DNA from: a virus
Virus record (IMG/VR): IMGVR_UViG_3300030098_001818
Location: 1-37,154 of that record
DNA: 37,154 bases
Strand: one strand, 5' to 3'
Shown piece by piece: positions 6,023 through 37,154 of this stretch. The notes beneath the pieces are model-generated. The model saw nothing but the letters and a program-made list of their open reading frames with translations, had not been told where the DNA came from and did not search any database. The position numbers and the translations under genes are program-made. Positions within the stretch are counted from its first letter, which is position 1; the number at the start of each line of letters is the position of its first letter.

Positions 6023-6040
6023 TTAGGCCCTACATCCTAA
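6018..6040. terminator. weak bidirectional hairpin between convergent genes
   Basis: TTAGG (6,023-6,027) and CCTAA (6,036-6,040) form an inverted pair, and TGTAG/CTACA near 6,018-6,034 offers an alternative pairing. They lie exactly between two convergent stop codons. Stems are short and there is no clear T run, so termination here is only suggested. Confidence 0.25.
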
Positions 6041-6185
6041 AATCAAATTGATAAAACTTCTTTCGTTCTATTGTCTTCTCTTTGCATACTGGACACCTTT
6101 GGATTCTTTCTTCATAGTTAGTGATAACCTCAAAGGTATCTTGGCTGCACTTATCATTTTTACAGATGTAGTCGTAGAGTGGCAT
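6030..6185 (-). CDS. FmdB-like zinc-ribbon protein
   Basis: The gene encodes 51 residues starting MPLYDYIC. The start at 6,185 overlaps the previous stop by one base (TAATG). Cysteines at 8, 13, 31 and 34 (the last two in CPVC) form a four-Cys ribbon. The MPLYDY-C opening is characteristic of the FmdB/putative regulatory zinc-ribbon family found in bacteria and phages. Function is not established. This is the last gene of the leftward late operon. Confidence 0.65.
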   Translation of the reverse strand: MPLYDYICKNDKCSQDTFEVITNYEERIQRCPVCKEKTIERKKFYQFDFRM

Positions 6186-7255
6186 TACTGAGTTGCAGGT
6201 TCGGTTAATAAGACTTCGATGTTGTCTGACACTTCCCAAAGAGTTGCGTTTGTTGTTGTAGCAACTACAAATTCTTTAGTGGCAAAGTTTTGATCATGAC
6301 CAAAAGTTCCGTACTGAATAGTAAGTAAGCCTAAATTTAGATTCTTAAGATCGCAAGTTCCACTTTTCGTAACAATGTTAGAAAGAATTAGTTTGTTTAC
6401 TTTAGGTGTTGTTGTTGCAGTATCAGTATCAAGCCACAGTCGGTCAAATCTAGATCCAGTCGTAATTAATTCTTTAGCCATATCGTAACCACCTGATATT
6501 CTCAAATCACGCTGAGTACCTGCTGTTTGAGCAATAGACTGACCATCACTTATATTGTCCTTGATCACTATCTTGTGTGCCTTGACATTGGATACATTTA
6601 AAGATTTGCAAGTTACTCTATCAAACATGAGTTCTCCTATATCAATTCCGACTGTCTTGCCGTCAATCAATAAAGCTTCTGTCTTGCCACTAGGTAGTGT
6701 TGAATTAGTGTAGTTATTGATAGACACATCTGTTATGGAGATTGTCTCAACTGCTGTTTTACCTACAACAATTCTTAATGTGTTGTCTGAGGGATTGTCT
6801 TTCCTCCATGCCATTCTTTTCTCAAGTTCTTCATCAGGAAACTCTGATGGAGCTGAATAAACTCCTGCATCACCATTTGCAAAACTTCTTTCTTGTATAA
6901 TCTCATTTGCTACCACTCCAGTTGTAACAGTACCACCAGCGATAAGAAGGCCTGAAGCCATAGCTGGATTGAAACCCAGCTTTAAAAGAATATTATATGG
7001 ACTTGCAACAACTTGAAAAAACCTGTGCCACTTCTTACTTTCAGCATCAAGATAATCTACCTTAGCCATCACATAGTCTCTAATGATCAGACCTTTCTTG
7101 TAGGCTTGTATTGAAAGTAAAACTGGAAAATATAGGATAGAAAATATCATCCTTTTAAATGCTTTTGCAATCTCAAAGAAGAATCTTCCGAAACCTTTTA
7201 CAACTTTTACAGGTATTCCTGCTATGGTCTTGATTGTTTTTATTATCTTTTTCAT
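6185..7255 (-). CDS. membrane-anchored protein with beta-rich C-terminal domain
   Basis: The gene encodes 356 residues. The start at 7,255 is preferred to a longer reading because its ATG overlaps the stop of the small upstream gene (ATGA). The N-terminus is basic and amphipathic (MKKIIKTIKTIAG, KAFKRMIFSILYF). Hydrophobic segments lie around 35-55 and 95-115 (ASGLLIAGGTVTTGVVA). From about 140 onward the sequence is strand-rich with repeated Asn/Val/Thr patterns (LNVSNVKAHKIVI, NKLILSNIV, CDLKNLNLGLLTI), suggesting a solenoid. It could be a virion protein that inserts into membrane, or part of the lysis or superinfection machinery. I recognise no family. Confidence 0.65.
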   Translation of the reverse strand: MKKIIKTIKTIAGIPVKVVKGFGRFFFEIAKAFKRMIFSILYFPVLLSIQAYKKGLIIRDYVMAKVDYLDAESKKWHRFFQVVASPYNILLKLGFNPAMASGLLIAGGTVTTGVVANEIIQERSFANGDAGVYSAPSEFPDEELEKRMAWRKDNPSDNTLRIVVGKTAVETISITDVSINNYTNSTLPSGKTEALLIDGKTVGIDIGELMFDRVTCKSLNVSNVKAHKIVIKDNISDGQSIAQTAGTQRDLRISGGYDMAKELITTGSRFDRLWLDTDTATTTPKVNKLILSNIVTKSGTCDLKNLNLGLLTIQYGTFGHDQNFATKEFVVATTTNATLWEVSDNIEVLLTEPATQ

Positions 7256-7353
7256 CTTGAATATATTTCTCCAATCACAATTATTGCTGCAAGGCATACA
7301 CCTAGACCAACAACTGTGGCTGCTATTTCTTTTTTTACTTTCTTCCTACTCAC
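7252..7353 (-). CDS. 33-residue single-span membrane protein (GTG start)
   Basis: A GTG start overlaps the upstream stop (GTGA), and the stop overlaps the next start (ATGA), so it sits in a three-gene translationally coupled chain. A basic N-terminus (SRKKVKKE) is followed by one 18-residue hydrophobic helix (AATVVGLGVCLAAIIVIG) and a short tail. Size and topology fit a holin-like or other small membrane protein. The exact coupling on both sides is the main evidence that it is real. Confidence 0.55.
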   Translation of the reverse strand: MSRKKVKKEIAATVVGLGVCLAAIIVIGEIYSR

Positions 7354-7505
7354 TCTTCTGATTCTAACACTTTAAATCCCAATCCTATAATTCCGCCTAC
7401 ACATCCTGTAGCAATTTCGTTGTACTCATAAACTATACCTAGGCATGACAATATACCTAGAACAATGATTGCTAGAAAAATCTGTGGTCTTAGTTTACCC
7501 ATCAT
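7350..7505 (-). CDS. small membrane protein, holin candidate
   Basis: The gene encodes 51 residues from 7,505, or 50 from the next codon, which is also ATG. GGAGG stands 6-7 nt before. Two hydrophobic stretches (IFLAIIVLGILSCLGIVY and ATGCVGGIIGLGF) are separated by a short polar turn, and the tail is acidic (LESEE). Two close membrane segments with a charged tail fit a class II holin-like protein. No endolysin is identified nearby, so the lysis role is tentative. It overlaps the Dam-type gene upstream and the 33-residue gene downstream. Confidence 0.55.
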   Translation of the reverse strand: MMGKLRPQIFLAIIVLGILSCLGIVYEYNEIATGCVGGIIGLGFKVLESEE

Positions 7506-8010
7506 TTGTTTCCTCCATTTTGTATATGTACCCATATTTGCTAAATACTTTCTTAAATTTATTTAAATTGTTTCCTAAATACACAATAGCAGATTGAAAT
7601 GGTGCAGCACCCTTTTGATTGCCAAACTTCATTCTTTTGTTTATTGCTACCCAAGGATATTTTGCTACGGATTTCCACCATTTTGTTGAAACATCTAATT
7701 TTATTAACATAACTATTTCATCTGCATTTCCATTTTCATACTGACGAACAGCATAATCTATCCACAGTTTACTTTGACTATAAGGGTGATTCATGAAAAC
7801 CTTTCCGTGCCAATCATAAGATAAACCATTTAGTTCTTCTGTAAGATGATTTAATGCTGGTATGTTAGGATTGTTAATATCGTTAGAACAAGGGTCAAGA
7901 TCTATAATGTCAAAAAACTTTACAAGATCATCTACAAACTCTTTAGGAGTATTCCATGTATCTTTACGATTCCCTGTTGTTGCAGTTAAAACTTGCAAAG
8001 ATGTTGTCAT
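7495..8010 (-). CDS. phage Dam-type DNA N6-adenine methyltransferase
   Basis: The gene encodes 171 residues, the usual size for the phage DNA_N-6-adenine-methyltransferase family. Seen motifs are DTWNTPKEFVDDL (18-30), LDPCSN (38-43), and the segment RMKFGNQKGAAPFQSAIVYLG near the C-terminus, whose APF-SAIVY pattern is family-typical. The catalytic tetrapeptide is NHPY (74-77) where NPPY or DPPY is usual. Whether His is tolerated there is unknown to me. This is a second methylase, of a different type from the one at 3,012. It lies among late genes and overlaps its upstream neighbour (TCATT, i.e. ATGA). Confidence 0.8.
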   Translation of the reverse strand: MTTSLQVLTATTGNRKDTWNTPKEFVDDLVKFFDIIDLDPCSNDINNPNIPALNHLTEELNGLSYDWHGKVFMNHPYSQSKLWIDYAVRQYENGNADEIVMLIKLDVSTKWWKSVAKYPWVAINKRMKFGNQKGAAPFQSAIVYLGNNLNKFKKVFSKYGYIYKMEETNDG

Positions 8011-8132
8011 TTCTTTTTCTTCCTTCTAAGTTTCTTGAAGTCTGCACCTGTAATCTTGTTTCTTGGAGGTGCAACTCTAGCTATCTTCATCTGTGCTTTA
8101 CTATATTTCTTTTTACCTTTTGGTTTTGGCAT
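8007..8132 (-). CDS. 41-residue lysine/arginine-rich protein
   Basis: The ATG at 8,132 has AGGA upstream, and the stop overlaps the methylase start (ATGA). It begins MPKPKGKKKYSK and ends KKLRRKKKK. About 40% of residues are Lys or Arg. It belongs to a run of five small basic proteins (8,007-9,282), so a role in binding packaged DNA or in the virion is plausible. No family is recognised. Confidence 0.6.
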   Translation of the reverse strand: MPKPKGKKKYSKAQMKIARVAPPRNKITGADFKKLRRKKKK

Positions 8133-27571: not shown

Positions 27572-29499
27572 TATACTCCTAGTCCTGGTGGTAGATCTCT
27601 TCCTTGCACTCTTCTGTTTCCAGTACGAGGTGAAGCTATCTGTCTACCGACTAATTCTTGTTCTCTTAAACTCCCAGGAACAACAGGTCTTGTATTTGTC
27701 TCTACTCTTGCCCTTTCTGTCGCAGGAGATCTTTGAGGTTGGTTAGTTGTACTAAAATTACCAGCATTAGGTAATTGTGTTTGTCCTTGAGTGTTAAGTA
27801 TATTCTGTGCTATCTGTTCAGCTTCTTGTCCGCTTGCTGCACCACTTGCTTCAACTAACTGTTGGAGTATTGGCACTCTTCTAGCAGCTTCACCTTGCAA
27901 TACTTGTTGTACTTGCTCACTCTTTAGGAATCCTTCTGCAAGTAATTTAGATCTTACTTCAAGTGCATTTGACACACCTGCTTTTCTAAGTGCAGTATCT
28001 TGATCAATGAATCCTGTTCTCCAAAGACTATTGTAAAGATTTAGTTTTCTTTCCTGTTCTTCTGGAGATGTAGGAGTAAGTTGTACCATGTTTACATAGT
28101 GACCTCTAATATCGTTTGGTCTTATGATTGCATCCATAGGCCCTGTTTCTGTTTTACCAAATACAGTTACCTTGTCTTGAATTACATTCTCGATAATGTG
28201 CAAGATAATAGAGTTTCTATCTTGTAATCCTCTCTGGGCTGCTTCTACATACGCACCAAAGTTAAGTGCAGCTATACCTGCTAATACAGCCGTATGATAA
28301 CCACTTGCAGCACCAGTTGGTCTTTGACCTCTTGATACGGCAGGTGCAGTGTTATCCTCAATAGCTTGTTGCATCATCTGCTGTGCAACCACAATAGAAC
28401 TCGGTGGATCTGGTGTGATTGCTCTTTCTATGTTTACGTTTTGAGGTAAGAAGTTCTTAGCACCAGGTGTCTCTTCGTACTGTTCCATAACCTGTTCTGT
28501 AATACCAGGAGGACCTCTAAAGTCTCTAGTAGGCCAAGCACTGTTACCAACAATATCTAGGTACTGAGATGCAAGTCTTGATTCTGCTCTAAGCATATCA
28601 AAGTTACCATGCAGTATTCCTCTGTAGAGTTTTTCGGGATCATACCCGTCACTCATTAGACCTGTGTGGGGCCAGTACATTGTAAAAGGCAAAGTCTTGT
28701 AGCCGTGTCGCTTCGGCTCTAATGCGAATTTGCCCTCAGCCATGTAACATACTTGACTGTGAGTCCAGGTTTCCACAAATTCCACTGTTCCTTCTACAGG
28801 TCCATCCCATGACGGAAAGTGAGCTTTTACCCATGATGCATCAATTTCGTAAAAGTGCATCACCCATCGTGGGTTCTGTATATTGTTGATATCCCAAACC
28901 ATCATCTTGGGATTTACGCAAGTTGAGGTTATAGGCCAGTTTATATTTCTTCTGTTAAGTACATCTTGTAGTTGCTCTTGATAATTACCAATGTCACCAT
29001 CTTCTGGTGGCTCAGGAAACTCTTCCCATCTGTTGGCTGCAAATTCAGTCTTTTCAAAGGCAACTCCATAAAGTGCCATGTGTTTTGCTGTTTCTCTTCT
29101 TGTTGGTGAGAACTGCTCAAGCATATGATTCGCACCCCTGAGAAACTTCTCAAGCAGTTCTGCTCTTGCACTTCCTTTAGGGCCTGGTGGTGGTACTGAT
29201 ATATCTAAAAATTGTGGTGTGACGTGAGCAACAAGTGTGTTGATTGTTGAACTTGCAGTTCCAAGTCTTATCTGTGAACCTGTCTCTGGAACTGAAAAAT
29301 CAAAGTTTGATAAATAAAAATCTTCGGCTTCTTCGCAGTTGTCGTAGAATGTGTCAAATTTTCTTCTTCCGCTTTCAAGAGTATTCTCTACCCACTCAAT
29401 AGTAAGTAAAGGCTCTTCTAACGGATTAGCACCCTCTCGTGCTATCTCTTCTTCAGGGTTGACACTGCTGCCAGAACCTGAACCATAACTCATTGTCAT
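27571..29499 (-). CDS. portal protein
   Basis: The gene encodes 642 residues, in the size range of large podovirus-type portals. It directly follows the large terminase gene with an ATGA overlap. Visible segments include RKFDTFYDNCEEAEDFYLSN, STINTLVAHVTPQFLDISVP, KHMALYGVAFEKTEF, DINNIQNPRWVMHFYEIDAS and LYRGILHGNFDMLRAESRLA, followed by a helical C-terminus with a Gln/Ala-rich region. The assignment rests on length, the wing/stem-like middle and the terminase-portal order. It forms the dodecameric DNA entry ring. Confidence 0.8.
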   Translation of the reverse strand: MTMSYGSGSGSSVNPEEEIAREGANPLEEPLLTIEWVENTLESGRRKFDTFYDNCEEAEDFYLSNFDFSVPETGSQIRLGTASSTINTLVAHVTPQFLDISVPPPGPKGSARAELLEKFLRGANHMLEQFSPTRRETAKHMALYGVAFEKTEFAANRWEEFPEPPEDGDIGNYQEQLQDVLNRRNINWPITSTCVNPKMMVWDINNIQNPRWVMHFYEIDASWVKAHFPSWDGPVEGTVEFVETWTHSQVCYMAEGKFALEPKRHGYKTLPFTMYWPHTGLMSDGYDPEKLYRGILHGNFDMLRAESRLASQYLDIVGNSAWPTRDFRGPPGITEQVMEQYEETPGAKNFLPQNVNIERAITPDPPSSIVVAQQMMQQAIEDNTAPAVSRGQRPTGAASGYHTAVLAGIAALNFGAYVEAAQRGLQDRNSIILHIIENVIQDKVTVFGKTETGPMDAIIRPNDIRGHYVNMVQLTPTSPEEQERKLNLYNSLWRTGFIDQDTALRKAGVSNALEVRSKLLAEGFLKSEQVQQVLQGEAARRVPILQQLVEASGAASGQEAEQIAQNILNTQGQTQLPNAGNFSTTNQPQRSPATERARVETNTRPVVPGSLREQELVGRQIASPRTGNRRVQGRDLPPGLGV

Positions 29500-31010
29500 A
29501 AGGCTTTAGTTCCTTCTTCTTCCATGGCAAGGAGTTTTCTCTCTTCTCTCCACCTCAAGATCCTCGATCCCTTGCTTCTGTAGTTGCTATTTAGAGGTTT
29601 AATACCTCGTTTTGATCTAGGAGCTGTAAGTAGTTCCATGACTTCTTGTGCAGGATCGCAAGCCATTAAAGCTAAACATTCTGCATCAACCCAGTCATCC
29701 CTACCTCCAGACACCGAATAGAACTGGTGACCTCGATTTGCCGTTTCCCTATGAGCAATATCTTCTAACTGACTTATTAGTTTACCCCAACTCTGTGGAA
29801 ATGCAACAGTCTCTTTTTCAAGTGACAATGCATAATCTAAGAACAACTGATACTTTTTACTTGGTGTAAAGTTGTATCCTATTACAGGAATAGAATGTTC
29901 TAGTAATTCACGATACAGCACATCTTCTCCCAGTTTACCACCCAGTCCTGTTGAGTCCATGTAGACCTCTTCTATGTTCCATCTAATAGCTTCATTCTTG
30001 ATTGTTTCTACCTGAAGTGACCAATCAGTCTTTGTAAGTTCTACAGCAAATACGGATGTTCTTGTCATTCTATCTTTGATTACCATGACTGTTGGATCAT
30101 TGGCTCTACCTAAGTCAAGACCTGCAACATAACTTGCTTCTTCAAGTGGCTGCATAAGTTCGTAGGCATCTTTGGTGTATGCCTTTGTTATATTTCTAAA
30201 AAAGTTACCTGCTCCCTCTGGTTGTTTTGCCATGTAGAATCTCTCCCATATACCCTCAGTAAGAGATCCTTTCTCTTCTTCAATCTCAAGTCTGTCATCT
30301 TCTGTAAGGTAGGGGTTGTCAAAGGTGGATGCGTGAAAAGCCTGTCTTCTTGTAGAAGGGGTTTCCTTTGCAATCTTAAAGTTCCTTGCAAACCAATGCT
30401 GAGAACTCTCTGGAGGAACACCCTCAACAATGGCCCTACCCAATCTTCCAGGAGAGTTAAGTGTAGGTCTGACCTTGTTCCACGCAGCTTCTTTGATGTC
30501 TTGGGATTCTGCCATGTGTAGAAAATCAAGACCTACAGTCTGTAATCCTTCAGGGTTGTCAGCAGACTTAAGTTCCCAAAATACAGATTGTCTCCATCTG
30601 TTGGGTAACCAGTTGCCTTTCTCATCTTTTAAATCTAACCATACATGTAAGTCATCTTGTTTAAATCCACCACCTCTACCACCAGCTTGTGCTTTGGTTC
30701 TCGTTTTACGAACTATGTGTTTTGGAATAAAGGCCTGCATCTCATTCCATACCTGCATCATCTGAGCTCTTGTAGGTGCAACAGTCCAAATATGAATAGG
30801 AGGTACAAGTCCTGCTTGTTCTGCGGTTAACTTTTCTTTCTTACCTGGAAACTGTACAGGGTTTATTGATGCTTCTCTGATTTGTCGTAATGCTTCCTGT
30901 AGAGCAGATCTAGTTTTACCTGCTCGTCTTCCAGCCTGTACAAATTTAATTTTAGCTTTTGACTCGTGCATTTCTTTTTGCCAAGGATACGCTTCATATA
31001 GGTTAGCCAT
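29496..31010 (-). CDS. terL: large terminase subunit (packaging ATPase and nuclease)
   Basis: The gene encodes 504 residues. Walker A is AGRRAGKTR at 26-34. A Walker B-like strand GLDFLHMAE is at 160-168. The RNase H-like nuclease domain has AGLDLGRANDPTVMV (acid D299), VYMDSTGLGG (D352) and GGRDDWVDAECLALM (D438/D439/D442). This order of ATPase then nuclease is the complete large-terminase architecture. It pumps DNA through the portal and cuts concatemers. It lies 18 nt downstream of the putative small-subunit gene and overlaps the portal gene by 4 nt. Confidence 0.93.
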   Translation of the reverse strand: MANLYEAYPWQKEMHESKAKIKFVQAGRRAGKTRSALQEALRQIREASINPVQFPGKKEKLTAEQAGLVPPIHIWTVAPTRAQMMQVWNEMQAFIPKHIVRKTRTKAQAGGRGGGFKQDDLHVWLDLKDEKGNWLPNRWRQSVFWELKSADNPEGLQTVGLDFLHMAESQDIKEAAWNKVRPTLNSPGRLGRAIVEGVPPESSQHWFARNFKIAKETPSTRRQAFHASTFDNPYLTEDDRLEIEEEKGSLTEGIWERFYMAKQPEGAGNFFRNITKAYTKDAYELMQPLEEASYVAGLDLGRANDPTVMVIKDRMTRTSVFAVELTKTDWSLQVETIKNEAIRWNIEEVYMDSTGLGGKLGEDVLYRELLEHSIPVIGYNFTPSKKYQLFLDYALSLEKETVAFPQSWGKLISQLEDIAHRETANRGHQFYSVSGGRDDWVDAECLALMACDPAQEVMELLTAPRSKRGIKPLNSNYRSKGSRILRWREERKLLAMEEEGTKAL

Positions 31011-31028: not shown

Positions 31029-31595
31029 TCATAATTCAGGAAGCCCATCTCCTGAGTAATCAACTTCTGGTACATGACCATTGTCTTGCACTATGCCAGG
31101 TTGTCTTTCGTCTTCCAAAAAGTATTTTATCTCTGGCCTTGAAGAGACAGGCTCCATGTGTTCTAAATATCCGTTAGCCATCATCTTAAGTGCAAAGTTA
31201 ACACCAGCACTTCCTTGAGCCTTTGCTCTCTCTAAATGCATAAAACTAAGAACAGCTGATTCGTGAGCATACACAGTATCTAGATGTGACTTCTTAATAT
31301 ATGTTTTCTTAGATCCAGGAAAGATAGGGTAGGAGTCCGTATCTCTGTATTGAGCAAGTTTTAATCTAAATGTCTGATCGTCTTCTATCTTGTCTAATAG
31401 TTTCTTTTTATTCCAACCAAACTCATCACACATCTCTTCTATACCTTGGTCACTAGATCCAAAGACGGGGAGTAGTACATAGACTTGTTTAAGCTGCCTA
31501 GTCCATTTCTTCCATTCAGGTATAGCCTTCAATACTCGTCTCTCTATTTCAGAGACTCCTGAACTACTTTTTGCAAGCATATTTTGTATAGCCAT
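31029..31595 (-). CDS. putative small terminase subunit
   Basis: The gene encodes 188 residues and is the first gene of the leftward operon, just before the large terminase. The N-terminal part has a helix-turn-helix-like segment (SSDQGIEEMCDEFGWNKKKL). The middle is helical (AHESAVLSFMHLERAKAQGS) and the C-terminus is acidic and flexible. The small terminase recognises the packaging site and is usually encoded here. The assignment is by position and by the HTH-like region, not by a family signature. Confidence 0.6.
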   Translation of the reverse strand: MAIQNMLAKSSSGVSEIERRVLKAIPEWKKWTRQLKQVYVLLPVFGSSDQGIEEMCDEFGWNKKKLLDKIEDDQTFRLKLAQYRDTDSYPIFPGSKKTYIKKSHLDTVYAHESAVLSFMHLERAKAQGSAGVNFALKMMANGYLEHMEPVSSRPEIKYFLEDERQPGIVQDNGHVPEVDYSGDGLPEL

Positions 31596-32355: not shown

Positions 32356-32385
32356 TTGACTTTTAATATTTCTATCAATTAATAT
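32356..32385 (+). promoter_or_regulatory. early promoter
   Basis: TTGACT (32,356-32,361), an 18-bp spacer and TAATAT (32,380-32,385). It lies about 47 nt before the first early gene. The -10 runs into TGGATT, part of the ATGGATT sequence also seen at the other early promoters. The region is AT-rich, so the -10 is less certain than the -35. Confidence 0.5.
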
Positions 32386-32431: not shown

Positions 32432-32662
32432 ATGAAAAAAGTTAAAATAAATAAATCTGATATCACTTACAAGAATTTAAAGAAGCGTTTCAATGCAGCT
32501 TCTCAAGATGAATTACTAATTAATCTGTGGGAACAGTTCAGAAGATTGCAAGCAATTACAGAAACTTGCGGCTTCTGTACAGACAATATTATTTATACTA
32601 AAAATATCGCATATGAAGATATTAAGAATGTATGTGAAAACAACAATTTTAATAATTCATAA
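32432..32662 (+). CDS. first early protein, unknown function
   Basis: The gene encodes 76 residues. The ATG follows AAGAAGGTTAAAAA, a weaker form of the leader used by the genes after it. The protein is charged, with a helix around NLWEQFRRLQAITETCGF and two cysteines five residues apart (CGFCTD), then a third further on (VCENN). First place behind the early promoter suggests a host-takeover factor. No family recognised. A type III hammerhead begins 9 nt after its stop. Confidence 0.65.
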   Translation: MKKVKINKSDITYKNLKKRFNAASQDELLINLWEQFRRLQAITETCGFCTDNIIYTKNIAYEDIKNVCENNNFNNS

Positions 32663-32670
32663 AATGGAGG

Positions 32671-32726
32671 TGCTAGGTTGGATAATGTGTATTATCCCTG
32701 ATGATTCGGAAACGATGAAACCAGCA
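32671..32726 (+). ncRNA. hammerhead ribozyme 1 (type III)
   Basis: Stem III is TGCT(A)GG (32,671-32,677) with CCAGCA (32,721-32,726), one bulged A, closed by U32678-A32720. The cleavage triplet GUU ends at 32,679, so cleavage falls between 32,679 and 32,680. Stem I is GGATAAT/ATTATCC (32,680-32,697) with loop GTGT. The core CTGATGA is 32,698-32,704. Stem II is three pairs capped by a GAAA tetraloop (32,705-32,716) with a U-U mismatch at the 10.1/11.1 position. The core GAAA is 32,717-32,720. All invariant core bases are present. Cleavage would leave nearly the whole ribozyme on the downstream mRNA's 5' end. Confidence 0.82.
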
Positions 32727-32757
32727 GCAAACAAACAATTTCATGGAGGTAAAAAAC

Positions 32758-33081
32758 ATGGAAAACAATAAAAAAGAAAACAACATTTTGCTTGATAGCA
32801 GCGGGGATTTATTCGGTTTAAAACCTGATGATGTTTTTAATGCTCATTCTGAAAACTTAAATGTAATGAGGTTTAGAATTGACAACCCAAGAAGAGTAGA
32901 ATTATCACAAGCAAGATATCATACAGATTTTGAAGTATTCATTTCTGATGACACTGAGCAACTAGAAAAACTTATTAAGTGGGCTCAGACTTTGCAAAAA
33001 GGGGCTAAGAAACACCTTAAGAAATTAAATAAAAAACTTGAGCAGCAAAAAAAACTTGAAGAGTTTGAAGCAAAATTATAG
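32758..33081 (+). CDS. early protein with C-terminal coiled coil, unknown function
   Basis: The gene encodes 107 residues. The start at 32,758 follows TGGAGGTAAAAAAC. An in-frame ATG at 32,743 lies in the Shine-Dalgarno itself and is unlikely. The N-terminal half contains LLDSSGDLFGLKPDDVFNAH, and a strand region follows (MRFRIDNPRRVELSQARYHT). The C-terminus is a basic-acidic coiled coil (LKKLNKKLEQQKKLEEFEAK). It is not recognised. It sits between ribozymes 1 and 2, whose second stem I begins at the last base of its stop codon. Confidence 0.65.
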   Translation: MENNKKENNILLDSSGDLFGLKPDDVFNAHSENLNVMRFRIDNPRRVELSQARYHTDFEVFISDDTEQLEKLIKWAQTLQKGAKKHLKKLNKKLEQQKKLEEFEAKL

Positions 33082-33139
33082 TGTTTCTGATGAGGTTTTA
33101 ATAACTGAAATAGCCCGATTTTTTCGGGCTATAAAACAC
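33081..33139 (+). ncRNA. hammerhead ribozyme 2 (type I)
   Basis: Stem I is GTGTTT (33,081-33,086) with AAACAC (33,134-33,139), six perfect pairs. The core CTGATGA is 33,087-33,093. Stem II is GGTT/AACT (33,094-33,106), closed by a G-U pair. The core GAAA is 33,107-33,110. Stem III is TAGCCCGA/TCGGGCTA (33,111-33,118 and 33,124-33,131) with a T loop, closed by A33110-U33132. The cleavage triplet is AUA, so cleavage falls between 33,133 and 33,134. It starts on the last base of the upstream stop codon. Cleavage would place ACAAACAATTT at the new 5' end of the next mRNA. Confidence 0.85.
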
Positions 33140-33170: not shown

Positions 33171-33245
33171 ATGGATAATGAAATAATAAAAATCATTACT
33201 AGCCCGACTGAATCGGACTTAATTAACGAAATACTTTACAAATAA
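33171..33245 (+). CDS. 24-residue early microprotein
   Basis: ATG follows GGAGGTTAAAAAA, the strong leader, and opens MDNEIIKIITSPTESDLINE ending ILYK. It has a good ribosome-binding site and lies between ribozyme 2 and a promoter. Its last codons overlap the -35 box of the next promoter. It may be a true microprotein or a leader peptide. Nothing matches it that I know. Confidence 0.45.
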   Translation: MDNEIIKIITSPTESDLINEILYK

Positions 33246-33268
33246 TTAAATGGATTGGTATAATCCAT
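33235..33268 (+). promoter_or_regulatory. early promoter with palindromic -10
   Basis: TTTACA (33,235-33,240), an 18-bp spacer and TATAAT (33,259-33,264). The -10 lies inside the perfect palindrome ATGGATT-ggtat-AATCCAT (33,250-33,268), an obvious operator position. The leader motif follows directly. Confidence 0.5.
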
Positions 33269-33300
33269 AAATGCAAACAATTTCATGGAGGTTAAAAATC

Positions 33301-34315: not shown

Positions 34316-34372
34316 GTGTAACTGATGAAGGCTAATGCTAGAAACTCCCTGATATTTCAGGGAGTCTTACAC
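34316..34372 (+). ncRNA. hammerhead ribozyme 3 (type I)
   Basis: Stem I is GTGTAA (34,316-34,321) with TTACAC (34,367-34,372), six perfect pairs. The core CTGATGA is 34,322-34,328. Stem II is weak: GGC/GCT with one G-U pair and an A-A mismatch at 10.1/11.1 (34,329-34,340). The core GAAA is 34,341-34,344. Stem III is CTCCCTGA/TCAGGGAG (34,345-34,364), eight pairs around TATT, closed by A34344-U34365. The cleavage triplet is the classical GUC, so cleavage falls between 34,366 and 34,367. Stems I and III differ in sequence from ribozyme 2 but keep pairing. The preceding TTATAGTGT is shared with ribozyme 2. Confidence 0.83.
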
Positions 34373-34778: not shown

Positions 34779-34780
34779 TA

Positions 34781-34816
34781 TTGACACAATCCATAACATG
34801 GGTGTAGAATACCCAT
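34781..34816 (+). promoter_or_regulatory. early promoter with palindromic -10
   Basis: TTGACA (34,781-34,786), an 18-bp spacer and TAGAAT (34,805-34,810). The -10 is inside the palindrome ATGGGT-gtagaat-ACCCAT (34,798-34,816). A leader-like ACAAGCAATTT and GGAGG (34,836-34,840) follow, then a three-codon ORF, before the real gene starts at 34,897. Confidence 0.55.
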
Positions 34817-34896
34817 TACAAGCAATTTTGAACTAGGAGGTAATGGACCACTAACACAAGTAAATACAATCAATCAACTAACAAAAAAGGTTAACA

Positions 34897-35436: not shown

Positions 35437-35723
35437 TGACAAAACAAGAATTAATAACATACTTTGGGGAAAGAATTGGCAAAGATGTTAAAAGTAAAAA
35501 CATTATAAAAAAAGGTAATTGGATATTTTATCAAGATCCCTCATGGATACATGACTTTCCTAATGATGTTGAGGTATACAATTTTCCTTGTGGTAGCGTT
35601 GCTGAATGTTTCACAGAAATAAAAAAAGATAAATCGCCATTTAATAAGAACTTGGATCAAAAAGAACTAGATGAAATACTAGAAGATCTTGATAACAACT
35701 GGCATGAATTTAAAAACAATTAA
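35436..35723 (+). CDS. small early protein (complete version; its tail recurs at the window start)
   Basis: The gene encodes 95 residues. The N-terminal helix (KQELITYFGERIGKDVK) is followed by strands (KGNWIFYQDPSWIHDFPNDV) and an acidic C-terminal helix (LDQKELDEILEDLDNNWHEF). Bases 35,658-35,713 are identical to 1-56. No family recognised. This gene marks where the two versions of the early segment begin to be shared. Confidence 0.65.
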   Translation: MTKQELITYFGERIGKDVKSKNIIKKGNWIFYQDPSWIHDFPNDVEVYNFPCGSVAECFTEIKKDKSPFNKNLDQKELDEILEDLDNNWHEFKNN

Positions 35724-35741
35724 AAAGAAAGAGGTTAAATA

Positions 35742-36167
35742 ATGAGTCTAAGTAGACAAGAAATAGATACTCTTGCTAACAGGTTGGAGACAATCAATAG
35801 CATGATGAAATCAATGAAAGAAGATAAAGCAAAAATAGAAAGAGAGATTGAGATTGAGTTTGAGGAACGATCTGAGAACACTTGGGCCAGTGAGTTAGTA
35901 GGTAACAACATGATTCTAAAAAGAGGATCAACTAAAGTTATTAAACCTGATGACTTACGAGCAGCAATAGGGGAGTGGGTAGAACCTGAAGAACTAGACA
36001 GATGTATTGTTCCTGAACATACAGAAATAAAAACTATACCTGAAAAGGTAAGTGTAGCTGAAGTTAATAAAATTCATAAACAAGGCGGGGAGTTGGCAAA
36101 TCAAATAGATAAAGCAACTAAAAAAATTACATCATCAATAAAAGTTTCAAAGAAGGAGGAACTATGA
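35742..36167 (+). CDS. coiled-coil early protein, Gp157-like in outline (allele B)
   Basis: The gene encodes 141 residues. An N-terminal coiled coil (NRLETINSMMKSMKEDKAKI) precedes the conserved core NTWASELVGNNMILKRG and DDLRAAIGEWVEPEEL. Unlike the version at 267-719, it ends cleanly with an ATGA overlap onto the RHH gene after a Lys/Thr-rich tail. It is the more regular of the two versions. Resemblance to Gp157-type proteins is suggestive only. Confidence 0.7.
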   Translation: MSLSRQEIDTLANRLETINSMMKSMKEDKAKIEREIEIEFEERSENTWASELVGNNMILKRGSTKVIKPDDLRAAIGEWVEPEELDRCIVPEHTEIKTIPEKVSVAEVNKIHKQGGELANQIDKATKKITSSIKVSKKEEL

Positions 36168-36328
36168 TAGGAAGACACATACTATTCCCAGAAGAAATAT
36201 GGGAAGATTTAAAAGCAATAGCCAAGCTAACAGGTAATTCACCATCAGCTTTAGTAAGACAATTCGTTGTTGATGGGGTTACACGAACACTACACCATGC
36301 AAATAAGGAGGTAAAGAATGGCAAGTAA
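36164..36328 (+). CDS. ribbon-helix-helix small protein (allele B)
   Basis: The gene encodes 54 residues. GGAGGAACT precedes the ATG, which overlaps the previous stop. The strand RHILFPEE and the turn TGNSPSALVRQFV match the RHH pattern of the version at 643-795. The first 31 bases of the two genes are identical and they then diverge. It overlaps the annealing-protein gene by 11 nt exactly as in the other version. Confidence 0.6.
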   Translation: MIGRHILFPEEIWEDLKAIAKLTGNSPSALVRQFVVDGVTRTLHHANKEVKNGK

Positions 36329-37052
36329 AGATATACATCCAGAAGATTTAGGAGAATTTATAGTTGAAAGTAAATTACAACGATCTAACAAGCTAAAAAA
36401 CTCAATGAAAGAAGGAGTTGACTTTGGCAAGATTGAGGGCAAAACATCAGATTTCCTTTGGGTAGGTGGTGCAGCAAAGTTAGCAGAAGAGTTTGGGCTT
36501 AACGCAACACTAAAAGAAATCAACGAAGAGCCGTTTGGTGAAGGTTGCAAGATTACAATTATATTGGACATCGTTGAGTCTGATGGAAAGGTTGTAGGTA
36601 CGGGAGTTGGTACTTGGGATAATGGAGAGATACTTGGCAACATGAAAGGTGCTAGGCAAAGAGGATTGGCTATGGCATACAAGAGGGCTTATGTCTTGGG
36701 TATTAGGTATGCAAGCAATAGCTTTGGTATCTTTAGTCAGGATGATGATGTTGTAAGGTATGCAGACGAACCACAACAACAATCTGAATGGAAACCAAAT
36801 CAGATTCAAGAACAACCAAAAAGACAATACGATCCTGATGCACCATTTACACCATGTAAAGAGGATGAAAATGGAGTTTGGAAAGTTGTAATTGGTGGTA
36901 AAGAGGGAACACCCTGGTCTGAATACAAAGGTAAAGAACTTATAGATGTTGTTAAGAATGATGTTGGTTGGGCAAATTGGGTATTGGCTAGACCAAACTT
37001 AGATTCATCTTGTAGAGAAGCCATTGAAAATGCAGCCACAGGTAAGCTCTAA
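36318..37052 (+). CDS. putative single-strand annealing / ssDNA-binding protein (allele B)
   Basis: The gene encodes 244 residues. It has the same architecture as the protein at 785-1,537: a helix (VGGAAKLAEEFG), strands (CKITIILDI-DGK-VGTGVGTWD), a basic helix (RGLAMAYKRAYVLGIRYASN), FSQDDDV, a Gln-rich linker and the C-terminal ExoX-like module (YKGKELIDVVKND-GWANW). Identity to the first version is high in the first 17 residues and in the C-terminal module, and lower between. The linker is unrelated. The last base overlaps the initiator start (TAATG). Confidence 0.65.
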   Translation: MASKDIHPEDLGEFIVESKLQRSNKLKNSMKEGVDFGKIEGKTSDFLWVGGAAKLAEEFGLNATLKEINEEPFGEGCKITIILDIVESDGKVVGTGVGTWDNGEILGNMKGARQRGLAMAYKRAYVLGIRYASNSFGIFSQDDDVVRYADEPQQQSEWKPNQIQEQPKRQYDPDAPFTPCKEDENGVWKVVIGGKEGTPWSEYKGKELIDVVKNDVGWANWVLARPNLDSSCREAIENAATGKL

Positions 37053-37154
37053 TGTCGTTTGCTCATCATGGATGGGCATTTAGATTAGACGGATTAAAGT
37101 CAGGACAAAGGCTTCTGTTGTTAGTGTTACTTGATTACGCTAGGGATGGTTGTC
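37052..37154 (+). CDS. start of replication initiator, truncated by window end
   Basis: There are 34 complete codons, identical in protein sequence to the first 34 residues of the gene at 1,537 apart from silent DNA changes. The last 40 bases are identical between the two. This is where the window closes on itself, and the remainder of the gene is that at 1,640-2,295 if the molecule is circular. Confidence 0.8.
   Translation, partial: MSFAHHGWAFRLDGLKSGQRLLLLVLLDYARDGC

Follow-up and report, generated by a model that had tools for sequence, protein, structure and literature searches.

The element at positions 32671–32726 (+ strand) of an uncultivated tailed phage is, by its predicted structure, confirmed as a genuine type III hammerhead ribozyme. 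This ribozyme, hereafter ribozyme 1, lies in an array of small genes together with two type I hammerheads. We propose that it processes the array RNA into units with defined ends, and we give this explanation as a whole a probability of about 0.7.

Setting and structure of ribozyme 1

The window analysed here is the whole IMG/VR virus record IMGVR_UViG_3300030098_001818, 37,154 bases in length. The terminase large subunit (TerL) gene on the minus strand (29496–31010; PHROG 2, E 1.5e-28) identifies the source as a tailed phage, and the left end of the record carries genes for replication initiation and a DnaC-like loader. Neither megablast nor blastn found a DNA-level relative of the record in the phage record collection, and TerL has only distant counterparts among cultured phages (20 records, all below 60% identity). 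Both ends of the record contain diverged copies (631–1639 and 36153–37154; 1–78 and 35658–35735; 68% and 93.6% identity, respectively), and two PHROG 10048 genes are included in them. These end copies reflect either a duplication that has since diverged or a circular map whose ends carry strain variants.

The small-gene array runs rightward from about 32,430, and most of its genes have no family. A sigma-70-like promoter match (32356–32385, + strand; 9/12, a consensus match only) precedes the first gene, and no terminator-like site on the + strand lies within the array before 37060. Ribozyme 1 is located between two of these genes. The upstream gene (32432–32662, + strand) encodes 76 residues with no family match, and 17 nt separate the end of its stop codon from the predicted cut. 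The downstream gene (32758–33081, + strand) encodes a 107-aa protein with no confident family match and a single relative, which lies on the same contig as the locus L010. Its Shine-Dalgarno sequence, about 65 nt past the cut, is part of the leader (32727–32757, + strand) that separates it from ribozyme 1. Ribozyme 2 (33081–33139, + strand; type I, predicted cut 33133/33134) follows directly, its first base being overlapped by the stop codon of the 107-aa gene. Next comes a 24-codon gene (33172–33245, + strand), which is kept in relatives with differing neighbour genes. Ribozyme 3 (34316–34372, + strand; also type I, predicted cut 34366/34367) has an A-A mispair at 10.1/11.1. The three ribozymes are labelled W1, W2, and W3 in comparisons, and the relatives' loci bear L-numbers.

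Ribozyme 1 folds around its core in the three-stem type III layout, with stem III open and stems I and II closed. Stem III (32671–32678 with 32720–32726) is formed by the 5′ strand TGCT(A)GGT at 32671–32678, in which A32675 is bulged, and the 3′ strand CCAGCA at 32721–32726. Stem I (32680–32697) is a 7-bp hairpin, in which GGATAAT (32680–32686) pairs with ATTATCC (32691–32697) across a GTGT loop. The core consists of CTGATGA (32698–32704) and GAAA (32717–32720), which we take to correspond to the hammerhead positions C3 U4 G5 A6 N7 G8 A9 and G12 A13 A14, with the A15.1–U16.1 pair, and it is complete for type III. The residue H17 is U32679, and the cleavage triplet GUU (32677–32679) satisfies NUH; the relatives have GUC or AUC. 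Stem II (32705–32716; TTCG-GAAA-CGAT) lacks the consensus G10.1–C11.1 pair, which is not strictly required, and has only three Watson-Crick pairs, because U10.1 and U11.1 are unpaired. The initial annotation had described a type III ribozyme with a perfect closed 7-bp stem I and an open stem III with one bulged A, a predicted cut at 32679/32680, and a downstream start at 32758. Direct reading of the sequence confirms all of these features.

A strict descriptor comprising the core, the GAAA, the three stems, and NUH, for types I and III, matched both strands of the record exactly three times (type III at 32679; type I at 33087 and 34322). The same descriptor gave on average 0.0033 type III and 0.0033 type I matches per window in 300 dinucleotide shuffles, and a chance origin is rejected. 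A looser descriptor returned the same three matches in the record, together with 11 type III and 4 type I matches in 200 shuffles. The energy of the 60-nt fold only modestly beats that of shuffles (z −1.98), 8 of 200 of which did as well.

At the gathering level, the Rfam scan recognised none of the ribozymes of the record. When 81 nt containing ribozyme 1 were scanned, RF00008 (Hammerhead_3) ranked first, with a full-length alignment (1–54 of 54), an E value of 0.003, and a score of 22.9 bits. This falls short of the 48.5 bits needed for gathering, a limit set for detection and not a biological feature. Ribozyme 1 departs from this family in that its stem-loop II is shorter and its stem III has a bulge. 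The missed score says little, because no hammerhead passes gathering in the loci of 11 relatives, including the full-core, long-stem examples of L147 and L064. Therefore, threshold-based counts would be far too low for such phages. Matches to other Rfam RNAs (sR55, rhtB, snoR43, and Ysr209) were all far below gathering and were rejected.

Relatives, covariation, and the strength of this copy

Type III hammerheads were also found in other loci, and CTGANGA and GAAA recur in the six further type III loci compared. L009 and L010 belong to the same phage group and were reached through a type I pattern; L164, of the same group, was reached through its terminase-side protein, which is 78% identical. 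The 56-nt ribozyme is identical in L122 and L181, two separate contigs, while L147 is from a GC-rich phage and L180 from a Legionellales genome. The loop I sequence U-GUGU recurs in three families (W1/L009/L010, L164, and L122), and this loop was not part of the query. One search for relatives returned at least 120 stretches and another returned 19, among which the hammerheads are those of L009, L010, and L147; the exact pattern of the record's own stem II had no match in viral_contigs. The terminase-side protein (31029–31595) links 26 loci, several of which do not span the whole array; eight have a convincing hammerhead and three have a type III, with the weak type II match in L177 left out. 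The hammerhead is dispensable, since most of these 26 loci have no detectable one. Two matches were dropped as chance-like, namely that of L177 and a type III descriptor match in L068 with long coding-like loops.

The stems of the type III ribozymes are kept by compensatory change in the five sequences compared, a small set. Between W1 and L164, both sides have changed in six of the seven stem I pairs and two of the seven stem III pairs; for W1 and L147, the corresponding numbers are five and two. Nearly all pairs are standard in W1, L010, L009, L164, and L147 despite the letter changes, and the sole non-standard pair is the W1 U10.1/U11.1, where the other four have G-C. In the type I set of nine sequences, 95.0% of the cells are paired, and double changes occur in 9 of 18 pairs. 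The type I covariation is 0.463, as compared to 0.193 (sd 0.030) in shuffles, none of which (0/500) reached it, while slid controls gave at most 0.125. Moreover, L011 and L135 share the same two flanking genes, and the stem I arms of the ribozyme between them differ on both sides and are still paired. An outer extension of stem I through the AAACA leader, noticed by eye in W2 and W3, was dropped, as it is not kept in L010 or L009.

How well does the record's own copy work? W1 and L010 differ in 7 of the 12 stem-loop II bases, with three pairs kept, and in only 1 of the 44 bases elsewhere. This single difference is at position 17, which is U in W1 and C in the relatives. Stem II forms with a probability of only about 0.2 in W1, the weakest of the five, as compared to 0.94–1.0 in L009, L010, L164, and L147, because the core CUGA pairs with UCGG. 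The competing fold has the minimum free energy, −14.4 kcal/mol, versus −12.1 kcal/mol for the hammerhead fold, in an energy model that does not include tertiary contacts. The initial annotation had taken the GAAA-capped stem II as a good sign of stability, and the prediction indicates the opposite. Its remark that the U-U at 10.1/11.1 is not ideal holds, yet according to the text of PMC3088659, hammerheads with U10.1–U11.1 exist in nature, and this is the most active and best tolerated mispair.

These weaknesses raise the possibility that W1 is in decay and has nearly lost its activity, and that it is carried along in a family with otherwise active members. The poorest stem II, a competing helix on the core, U17 in place of C17, and the U-U mispair would all fit such decay. 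However, the core is complete to the letter, stems I and III are undamaged, the differences from L010 are limited to stem-loop II and position 17 with the three pairs retained, and the mispair is a naturally tolerated one. We consider decay doubtful, though worth keeping in view. The sequence suggests instead that ribozyme 1 is likely active: we rather expect it to be slow but working, and the folding model indicates that it is probably slower than the relatives' copies. In the text of PMC3088659, tandem prophage hammerheads are reported to cleave in vitro, and those of A. tumefaciens also in E. coli.

Topology, leaders, and the proposed processing

The two topologies differ in where they cut and in what follows. 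A type III ribozyme is cut upstream of its body, so the downstream mRNA would retain the body of ribozyme 1; the bodies of the type I ribozymes 2 and 3 would stay on the upstream RNA. These assignments agree with the initial annotation. In the six type III loci measured, the cut is 13–64 nt past the upstream stop codon, and in five of them the Shine-Dalgarno sequence is 57–71 nt and the start 68–81 nt past the cut; the L147 locus gave no match to the Shine-Dalgarno pattern. In all nine type I loci measured, by comparison, the Shine-Dalgarno sequence is 8–24 nt and the start 19–37 nt past the cut, and seven of the nine have a stop codon that overlaps with stem I or the core, W3 and L010 being the exceptions. 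Thus, the difference in leaders that had been suspected from this one array is systematic. Mixed topologies do not make the array special, since mixed clusters also occur in L147 (types III and II) and in L009, L010, and L180 (types III and I), among matches with at least 14 pairs. The 5′ ends may fare differently under the two topologies. A connection of topology with leader length did not appear in the text of the freely accessible papers searched.

The predicted cleaved type III product begins with a blunt 5′-terminal 7-bp hairpin. A 5′-OH and a terminal hairpin would be expected to slow 5′-end-dependent decay. The predicted openness of the Shine-Dalgarno sequence is 0.71 before and 0.70 after cleavage; this near-identity favours end processing over a switch of the ribosome-binding site.

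We propose the following sequence of events. Transcribed within the polycistronic RNA, ribozyme 1 would cut 17 nt beyond the first gene's stop codon and separate this gene from the remaining array. Its body, with stem I as a blunt 5′-OH hairpin, would stay at the front of the mRNA of the 107-aa gene. Ribozyme 2 would then cut behind this gene, with its body remaining on the 3′ end. Because ribozymes 1 and 2 would both cut, a 454-nt unit (32680–33133) would be freed with ribozyme folds at both ends. These folds would probably slow both 5′-end-dependent and 3′ decay, and the ends would be fixed whatever lies upstream. The analysis establishes the structure, the cut geometry, the compensatory conservation, and the portability between differing gene neighbourhoods; the cleavage itself, its effects on stability, and the benefit to the phage are inferred.

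A bolder version of the proposal is that the hammerhead topology is picked gene by gene as a code for mRNA ends, with the 107-aa mRNA folded at both ends as a natural RiboJ-like insulator, part of which may circularise. Partial circularisation of this unit is conceivable because 5′-OH and 2′,3′-cyclic-phosphate ends are joined by RtcB-type ligases. We regard this version as speculative and rather unlikely. A single gene bracketed by a type III and a type I hammerhead was not found in the text of PMC3088659. The placement in the present array illustrates how the message that retains a protective fold could be set by the orientation of the ribozyme, if it is active. Both topologies occur in one small array, and natural variants of each exist in close relatives, so the two can be compared cleanly. 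Should mRNA lifetime or protein level depend on topology, this would go some way to explaining the retention of all three hammerhead types by phages and would supply natural insulator parts.

Competing explanations and known systems

In sequence comparisons, the ribozyme and its leader are kept although the genes around them change. A 64-nt match to L009 (32676–32739) stands alone, with dissimilar genes on either side, and the gene that follows ribozyme 3 is not the same in the record, L009, and L011. Leaders resembling that of ribozyme 1 come after ribozymes 2 and 3 and also occur at ribozyme-free gene junctions. Furthermore, similar ACAAACAATT...GGAGGT leaders follow the promoter-like sites at 33235–33264 and 34781–34810 (11/12 each), while promoter-like sites overall are fewer than in shuffles (12 vs 24.2). 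These observations would fit a view in which an accessory gene receives its defined 5′ end from either a promoter or a ribozyme. The two sites are strong sigma-70-like matches with their −10 regions in small hairpins, and they are kept in relatives. A hidden ribozyme at 33246–33300 or 34780–34860 was considered and rejected, as the hairpins there resemble those of promoter-type sites.

Could the element matter as DNA rather than as RNA? The ribozyme and leader might form a shared block for the exchange of accessory genes by homologous recombination, with RNA cleavage secondary, and both the swapped genes around the conserved block and the ribozyme-free leaders recurring at gene junctions are what such exchange would leave. 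However, a linker requires identical sequence and not compensatory change, whereas the stems of both types covary, and L011 and L135 carry different, still paired stem I arms between the same two genes. This makes a pure DNA role improbable. The stop codon positions, 13–64 nt before the type III cuts and over stem I or the core in type I loci other than W3 and L010, would also suit a conditional switch, in which ribosomes finishing the upstream gene block stem formation and cleavage reports upstream translation. The same positions are just as much to be expected if the ribozyme merely has to spare both genes, and we consider such a switch unlikely. That the region is a small protein gene and not an RNA is scarcely credible. 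A frame reading ...MCIIPDD... is open in the record, L009, and L010, but all six codons that differ between the record and L010 are non-synonymous and the corresponding stretch of L164 has no such peptide, and on these grounds the coding reading was rejected. Processing of the array RNA into end-defined units remains our preferred explanation.

How does the array compare with known systems? Clusters of hammerheads of several types flank genes in prophages (Perreault et al. 2011, PMC3088659), and the text of that paper proposes that they cut long phage RNAs into gene-length mRNAs. As in those clusters, several hammerheads here lie near one another in phage DNA and flank individual small genes; all three types occur there, and a weak stem II and U10.1–U11.1 are seen there as here. 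Unlike them, the present phage group is absent from the phage record collection at the DNA level. Parts of two further papers describe hammerheads that cluster around small non-conserved ORFs, the phage role being called an open question (PMC6155905, presumably De la Pena et al. 2017), and bacterial self-cleaving ribozymes that show enrichment close to one another and to Mu-like phage genes (PMC10085705). The hammerheads of the array thus belong to an already known kind, since clustered hammerheads among small phage genes have been published before.

The nearest engineered counterpart is RiboJ, described in the text of PMC6206723 as a synthetic 5′ insulator based on the sTRSV hammerhead with a separate 23-nt hairpin. 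In both cases, the ribozyme lies between the upstream sequence and the Shine-Dalgarno sequence, and cleavage removes, or here would remove, the upstream RNA while the hairpin-bearing body is kept. The likeness is one of geometry. The upstream neighbour of the array ribozyme is a gene and not a promoter. In E. coli, RiboJ increased transcript levels about twofold and protein levels two- to tenfold, an effect its authors tentatively credit to a terminal hairpin (PMC6206723).

Other arrangements were observed among the relatives' loci. In L147, a type II hammerhead with stem II open (7776–7828, minus strand) lies about 1.3 kb from the type III in the same array. In the Legionellales locus L180 (5676–6545), metabolic genes surround a type I and a type III hammerhead that are separated by about 0.8 kb. 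Finally, L064, a GC-rich phage unrelated to the present one, carries five type I hammerheads in about 2 kb (6029–8036), each of which precedes an ATG gene with TGCAATGGAG ahead, forming a dense ribozyme-per-gene array.
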